Shown: piece by piece, positions 28,865 to 30,297 of the stretch
How the letters are laid out: every line of letters starts with the position of its first letter
Position numbering within the stretch: position 1 is the stretch's first letter
Source: Bacteroidia bacterium
Lineage (GTDB): Bacteria; Bacteroidota; Bacteroidia; B-17B0; Aurantibacillaceae
NCBI GenBank assembly: GCA_022842625.1
Contig: JALHPG010000004.1
Location: 1-64,000 of the forward strand
Length of the DNA: 64,000 nucleotides
Direction of reading: 5' to 3'
Translations under genes and position numbers: made by a program
Notes under the pieces: generated by a model
What the model was told of the DNA's origin: nothing
What the model saw: the letters and a program-made list of their open reading frames with translations, nothing else
Databases searched by the model: none

Positions 28865-28886
28865 TCCCACAAACATAAAAACTTCG

Positions 28887-28920
28887 AGCCTCCTTTTTTA
28901 AATAAAAGGAGGCTTTTTAT
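28887..28920 (+). terminator. Intrinsic terminator after mscL
   Basis: AGCCTCCTTTT and AAAAGGAGGCT form an 11-bp perfect stem with a 6-nt loop, followed by TTTTTAT. Confidence 0.92.
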
Positions 28921-28928
28921 TTTACAAG

Positions 28929-28967
28929 TTAACAATTCCTTAACATTAAATTGGATTTGAATTAACG
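28929..28967 (+). promoter_or_regulatory. Pho-box-like TTAACA repeats before the porin gene
   Basis: TTAACA at 28929 and again at 28940 are separated by 5 bp (11-bp periodicity). In the same phase lie a degenerate TTGGAT at 28951 and TTAACG at 28962. This is the spacing and sequence of PhoP boxes in Bacillus subtilis (TTAACA-like hexamers, about 5 bp apart). The array runs up to the putative -33/-7 region of the gene. The regulator is not in the window, so the role is inferred. Confidence 0.55.
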
Positions 28968-28984
28968 AGTTAACCTTTATTTTG
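28956..28984 (+). promoter_or_regulatory. Probable promoter of the porin gene
   Basis: TTTG at 28956-28959 and TTATTTTG at 28977-28984 (one mismatch to TAnnTTTG) are 17 bp apart, 27 bp upstream of the porin ATG, and overlap the TTAACA repeat array. Confidence 0.4.
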
Positions 28985-30240: not shown

Positions 30241-30257
30241 GTAACAATAAGTTAACA
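30241..30257 (+). promoter_or_regulatory. Pho-box-like repeat before the Pit transporter gene
   Basis: GTAACA (30241) and TTAACA (30252) repeat with 11-bp periodicity. A -7-like TACATTAG follows at 30278-30285 with no -33 TTG, so the second hexamer lies about where the -33 should be, as expected for an activator-dependent promoter. It falls directly after the porin stop. Confidence 0.5.
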
Positions 30258-30297
30258 TTACGCTTATAATTATTAAATACATTAGCCAAAAAATTTT

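Follow-up and report, generated by a model that had tools for sequence, protein, structure and literature searches.

The repeated sequence in front of a porin gene of this Bacteroidia bacterium very probably does act as a switch that turns the gene on when phosphate is scarce, a reading that we draw from sequence comparison, since the same sequence precedes genes for phosphate transport and for the phosphate regulator in a large part of the Bacteroidota. As the best explanation (probability of roughly 0.87), the site would be the operator, or Pho box, of the genome's own PhoB, by which the porin gene and the gene for a PiT phosphate transporter would be activated in phosphate starvation. The window, by which we mean the whole stretch of 64,000 nucleotides analysed, belongs to a 4.09-Mb draft genome (229 contigs, 98.4% complete), whose named near relatives were assembled from metagenomes and carry the labels Bacteroidia or Sphingobacteriaceae.

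Within the window, TTAACA-N5-TTAACA has a sole exact match, TTAACAATTCCTTAACA at 28929-28945 (+), which is located 82 bp before the porin ATG (Table 1). Here, the original prediction had described two further in-phase copies, one of them degenerate, and an OprO/OprP-like porin downstream, and we found the copies exactly as described at 28929-28967 and the porin confirmed by its Porin_O_P match. Directly 3' of the porin gene is the PiT gene, whose product also gave 418 bits against the PitA model NF033774, under that model's cut-off. This neighbour, and the pst genes found nearby in relatives, suggest that phosphate is what the porin may pass. Moreover, a second box that the original prediction had missed, a weaker twin of the first, sits directly behind the porin gene, and this box before PiT is kept both within the genus and elsewhere in the Bacteroidota. 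The hairpin after mscL putatively sets that gene apart from the porin transcription unit.

Table 1. Features of the porin-PiT locus, in coordinates of the window.
Feature	Position	Strand	Basis or remark
Intrinsic-terminator-like hairpin 3' of mscL	28886..28915	+	12-pair stem with T tail
PhoB-type box with direct repeats TTAACAATTCC and TTAACATTAAA at an 11-bp period (core 28929-28945)	28929..28950	+	exact match and conservation
In-phase third (TTGGAT, 28951, +22, degenerate) and fourth (TTAACG, 28962, +33) copies	28951..28967	+	sequence
Putative -7 element TATTTTG of porin (Bacteroidota TAnTTTG type)	28978..28984	+	spacing conserved in relatives
Outer-membrane porin gene, Porin_O_P family (OprO/OprP-like), 408 aa	29011..30237	+	Pfam PF07396, E=5.6e-29
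Second box GTAACAATAAGTTAACA (GTAACA-N5-TTAACA)	30241..30257	+	57 bp before PiT start codon
Putative -7 element TACATTAG of PiT promoter, weak	30278..30285	+	best-scoring offset
PiT inorganic phosphate transporter gene (PHO4 family), 467 aa	30298..31701	+	PF01384, E=6.9e-86

The significance of the site comes from its conservation and promoter position rather than from the frequency of the pattern, which by itself is not beyond chance in the window (three sites at ≤1 mismatch, with 1.9 expected). In fact, no genome-wide enrichment of the bare pattern was found, there being 93 sites at ≤1 mismatch versus 135 for the reversed control pattern, and the other exact matches in the genome are mostly within genes or before unrelated genes; for these reasons the bare pattern was dropped as evidence. 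One such exact site, about 370 bp before a sixA-ppk-ppx cluster, is inside a divergent coding gene and was left out of the count. We then relied on sequences gathered from about 28 genomes, namely those upstream of PiT and of the porin or pst genes beside it. Among these, the pattern at ≤1 mismatch is held by 37 of 48 porin, PiT and pstS upstream regions versus 0.6% of dinucleotide shuffles, and the box occurs at ≤2 mismatches in all 18 porin-type promoters of relatives, though such counts overstate independence because the sites share ancestry. The contrast between box and flank is the stronger argument. Across the genus, the twelve columns of the hexamers hold 1.79 (porin), 1.76 (PiT), 1.92 (phoB) and 1.72 bits (the gene of a PhoB paralogue), as against 0.42, 0.31, 0.92 and 0.35 bits, respectively, in the 30 columns upstream of the box, with the contrast being weakest for phoB because a second conserved block lies upstream there.

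Two repeats with an 11-bp period, upstream of a putative promoter, thus make up the conserved element. In relatives, the third and fourth repeat positions before the porin carry only 0.35 and 0.83 bits per column, compared with the 1.79 of the two-repeat core. We accordingly rejected the third and fourth repeats as parts of the operator, as they are unconserved before porin, PiT and phoB alike, the fourth copy being conserved only before the PhoB paralogue. Downstream of the box are TAnTTTG and TAnnTTTG elements, which we take to be Bacteroidota -7 elements of the TAnnTTTG consensus. Of the 18 porin promoters of relatives, 13 have a perfect TAnTTTG at +38, counted from the first base of the second repeat; of 21 phoB promoters, 13 have TAnnTTTG at +27, and the best-scoring -7 position in the PiT promoters (n=22) is +26. 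The spacing from box to -7 element therefore differs between promoter classes by 11-12 bp, or about one helical turn, as is expected if a bound regulator touches the polymerase from one face. A scan for sigma-70 promoters gave 10 promoter-like sites where 5.3 were expected and was set aside, as the Bacteroidota-type -7 element fits better.

To search the genome, we used a profile built from 33 boxes of relatives, with none taken from the genome itself; the first pass of the scan scores 150 candidates per genome, so that weak sites may escape it. Across the 4.09 Mb, the porin box ranked first (E=7.6e-4) and the PiT box second (E=0.017). The promoter of the phoB candidate came seventh, with its box 48 bp before the ATG, and that of the PhoB-like paralogue about twentieth. 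The genome scan proposed with the original prediction gave no signal with the bare pattern, and the claim of a Pho operator is supported by these two top ranks of the relatives-only profile and by recurrence of the box before phoB, porin-pst-phoU and PiT. The best sites of three congeners include those of PiT and porin, of phoB and its paralogue, of the gene that opens a pst operon and of one for a PHA synthase subunit. In one complete genome (G001), the second-best site is in front of a Porin_O_P gene that lies some 2.5 kb ahead of the pst permease genes, and in three others (G009, G017 and G003) the box heads a cluster encoding a 430-aa outer-membrane-type protein, followed by pstS, pstC, pstA, pstB and phoU, of which the PstS and PhoU of G009 were confirmed by Pfam. 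A Pfam scan of the first protein of this cluster and of its G001 counterpart gave no match; in several congeners the porin label comes from position and length, and in our genome it is a clear Porin_O_P. Lying as it does before genes of phosphate acquisition and before the regulator gene, the box is by architecture and gene context a PHO box, so far as sequence can assign it.

Beyond the genus, the box was present at a shuffle p≤0.05 in 27 of 46 PiT upstream regions from more distant Bacteroidota, where about two were expected, a tally made by hand on a set in which some PiT starts were placed from alignment and may be off by some codons. In eight PiT upstream regions from non-Bacteroidota phyla there was none. 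The distant carriers include Spirosoma, Dyadobacter, Siphonobacter, Adhaeribacter, Aquirufa, Emticicia, Pedobacter and Mucilaginibacter, among others, and a weak box or none is found in several others of the phylum, namely the PiT promoters of Chryseobacterium, Sphingobacterium and some Hymenobacter. Blind profile scans of five distant genomes had as their best match PiT in Siphonobacter, Adhaeribacter and Aquirufa, DUF47/PhoU_div in Pedobacter, and a site between lipoprotein-like and trypsin-like genes in Dyadobacter. Lower matches fell at Porin_O_P, phoB (in two genomes), a phytase-like gene, FecR and TonB receptors. As a counterpoint, similar boxes precede genes not obviously linked to phosphate, these being the site beside the trypsin-like gene and a dnaB/dehydrogenase intergenic region. 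The site in the latter is AATTAACAATTACCTAACA, a box-like sequence conserved in the gap between a dnaB-like and a dehydrogenase-like gene (L104, G000:C50:7261; L144, G001:2383076).

As for the regulator, six of the OmpR family are encoded in the genome, and the one closest to PhoB (C12:27537-28217) scored 231 bits with TIGR02154 (cut-off 296) and 212 with NF053854 (cut-off 270). Its DNA-binding domain matches the E. coli PhoB entry 1gxp, and in the alignment with 1gxp its recognition helix, DRTIDVHIRKLR, nearly equals the DRTVDVHIRRLR of E. coli PhoB. Relatives of this candidate occur in 40 of 41 genomes, with matches in 17 of 17 genera tested, and the box in its promoter is conserved in the genus. 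The best scores of the other regulators were KdpE-like, RprY-like or unspecific. A PhoR candidate (C105:7555-8376; 241 bits, under the cut-off of 334) is encoded away from phoB. In the intergenic region that separates phoB from a divergently oriented TonB receptor gene (L037:7219-7387), we also noticed two conserved boxes on opposite strands, and the block on the receptor strand, TTAAAC-N5-GTAACA-N5-TTTAAG, has three 11-bp repeats. The PhoB-like paralogue (L037:13640-14320, +; G000:C12:34639-35319) lies about 6 kb from phoB, has a weak receiver-domain match, and is found in 22 of 25 genomes of the genus, with one weak match outside it; its promoter carries the box and a conserved in-phase fourth copy (1.84 bits).

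The E. coli PHO box likewise has two 11-bp direct repeats before phosphate-uptake genes and phoB, and its regulator has the near-identical recognition helix, binding the 11-bp repeats head to tail (PMC4415409). In E. coli, however, the repeat is CTGTCAT, whereas here it is TTAACA and is combined with a Bacteroidota -7 type core promoter. We found no convincing E. coli-type boxes in the genome, as CTGTCAT-N4-CTGTCAT had no genome-wide match at fewer than two mismatches, and 19 at two mismatches versus 11 for a control. The Bacillus PhoP box is built from the hexamer TT(A/T/C)ACA with an 11-bp period and has four repeats in its core binding region. The box described here shares the TTAACA-like hexamer and the period with the box of Bacillus subtilis, but differs in having two conserved repeats instead of four, a Bacteroidota host and an E. 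coli PhoB-like helix. In this comparison, the sequence and phasing that the original prediction had likened to Bacillus, as opposed to CTGTCAT, hold for the hexamer and for the lack of CTGTCAT, but not for a four-repeat Bacillus operator.

Among published elements, the closest is the PhoP motif of Riemerella anatipestifer, for which the available part of the report gives TTTAACA as the most conserved nucleotides by DAP-seq, upregulation of PhoP in phosphate starvation and binding to its own promoter (PMC9603813). The same part describes 583 peaks and an ArcA-like motif, discusses the regulon as one of virulence and aerotolerance, and names no phosphate porin or PiT promoter (PMC9603813). We liken the two by motif. 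Given Riemerella, the idea of a Bacteroidota phosphate regulator reading TTAACA is not new. The view that this lineage would have a Pho regulon defined by such boxes can be kept, but the lineage is much of the phylum and the motif was partly in print already. Another point of reference is Flavobacterium johnsoniae, in which the phoBR region has an OprP gene and a TonB receptor, a further receptor is phytase-linked, and phosphate depletion induces FecR-like and TonB-type genes but not the OprP of the phoBR operon (PMC8115612). A Pho box was sought in the text of that low-phosphate study and not found. Nor did the literature searched, from which most subscription journals were absent, yield any Bacteroidota Pho box beyond the Riemerella TTTAACA or an earlier definition of a two-repeat box that precedes PiT, porin and phoB across the phylum.

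Could the box instead be bound by another OmpR-family regulator (ArcA-like, YycF-like or the PhoB paralogue) and answer a signal other than phosphate? We consider this improbable. The genome does have its six OmpR-type regulators, the paralogue's own promoter carries the box, and the hexamer read in reverse complement, TGTTAA, is similar to the ArcA box, to which the Riemerella motif was also compared by its authors (PMC9603813). Against this, the sites cluster on phosphate genes and phoB across genera, PhoB occurs in every genus tested where the paralogue is genus-restricted save for its one weak match, and the remaining regulators did not score as PhoB.

The original prediction had called the box Firmicutes-style, and descent from the Bacillus PhoP operator, or horizontal transfer of a Firmicutes-style Pho system that uses four TTAACA repeats, would account for a hexamer that fits TT(A/T/C)ACA, the 11-bp period and the third and fourth copies at this one locus. 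Since conservation stops at two repeats, the box occurs widely in Bacteroidota and the helix is close to that of E. coli PhoB, this origin is largely refuted and we regard it as highly improbable; the helix, the two repeats and the phylum spread point rather to a Bacteroidota PhoB box with a Bacillus-like hexamer than to a Firmicutes import. We give just as little credence to a chance AT-rich repeat without function. The absence of bare-pattern enrichment in window and genome would suit it, yet conserved columns amid diverged flanks, the fixed promoter spacing and the top rank under a profile that excludes this genome all speak against it, and conservation as read from the alignments contradicts it.

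Under the preferred PhoB-operator reading, phosphorylated PhoB would bind the two 11-bp direct repeats (consensus TTAACA-aTTnn-TTAACATT) head-to-tail in phosphate starvation and contact RNA polymerase from a fixed helical phase, just upstream of the Bacteroidota-type promoter. It would activate the porin gene (29011) and, via the second box, the PiT gene (30298) separately, so that phosphate uptake at the outer and inner membranes would rise together, and the boxes before phoB and its paralogue would amount to autoregulation.

In E. coli-type bacteria, the PstSCAB-PhoU complex is the route of phosphate signalling. In our 98.4% complete draft, neither PhoU (PF01895) nor PstA was detected. Across the genus, PstA turned up in just 4 of 25 genomes, and the rest, this genome and 20 others, retain phoB and its boxes. 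The species likely has no Pst-PhoU, as judged from searches that targeted PhoU and PstA. A broader and tentative proposal, which we hold at somewhat less than even odds, is that TTAACA-aTTnn-TTAACATT serves most Bacteroidota as their Pho box and runs a Pst-PhoU-free regulon here and in most of the genus. Regulated uptake would then run through PiT and the porin, with phosphate sensed by some means other than PstSCAB-PhoU. Water, soil and guts are rich in Bacteroidota, some of which are reported to respond to low phosphate; with the consensus and promoter spacing, one could predict Pho regulons from thousands of genomes and metagenomes, and species that keep PhoB and its boxes, seemingly without Pst and PhoU, make phosphate sensing without them testable.

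Two further observations concern the congeners. A box is located 33-65 bp before a PHA synthase subunit gene in G017, G009 and G001 (L133, L137 and L147), with PF09712 confirmed in G017 and similar proteins present in G009 and G001, which suggests that polyester storage may be tied to phosphate status. Moreover, the PstC-like protein of G009 (385 aa, L083:2585-3742, -) has an apparent insert between its membrane helices that resembles a phosphate-binding-protein motif.
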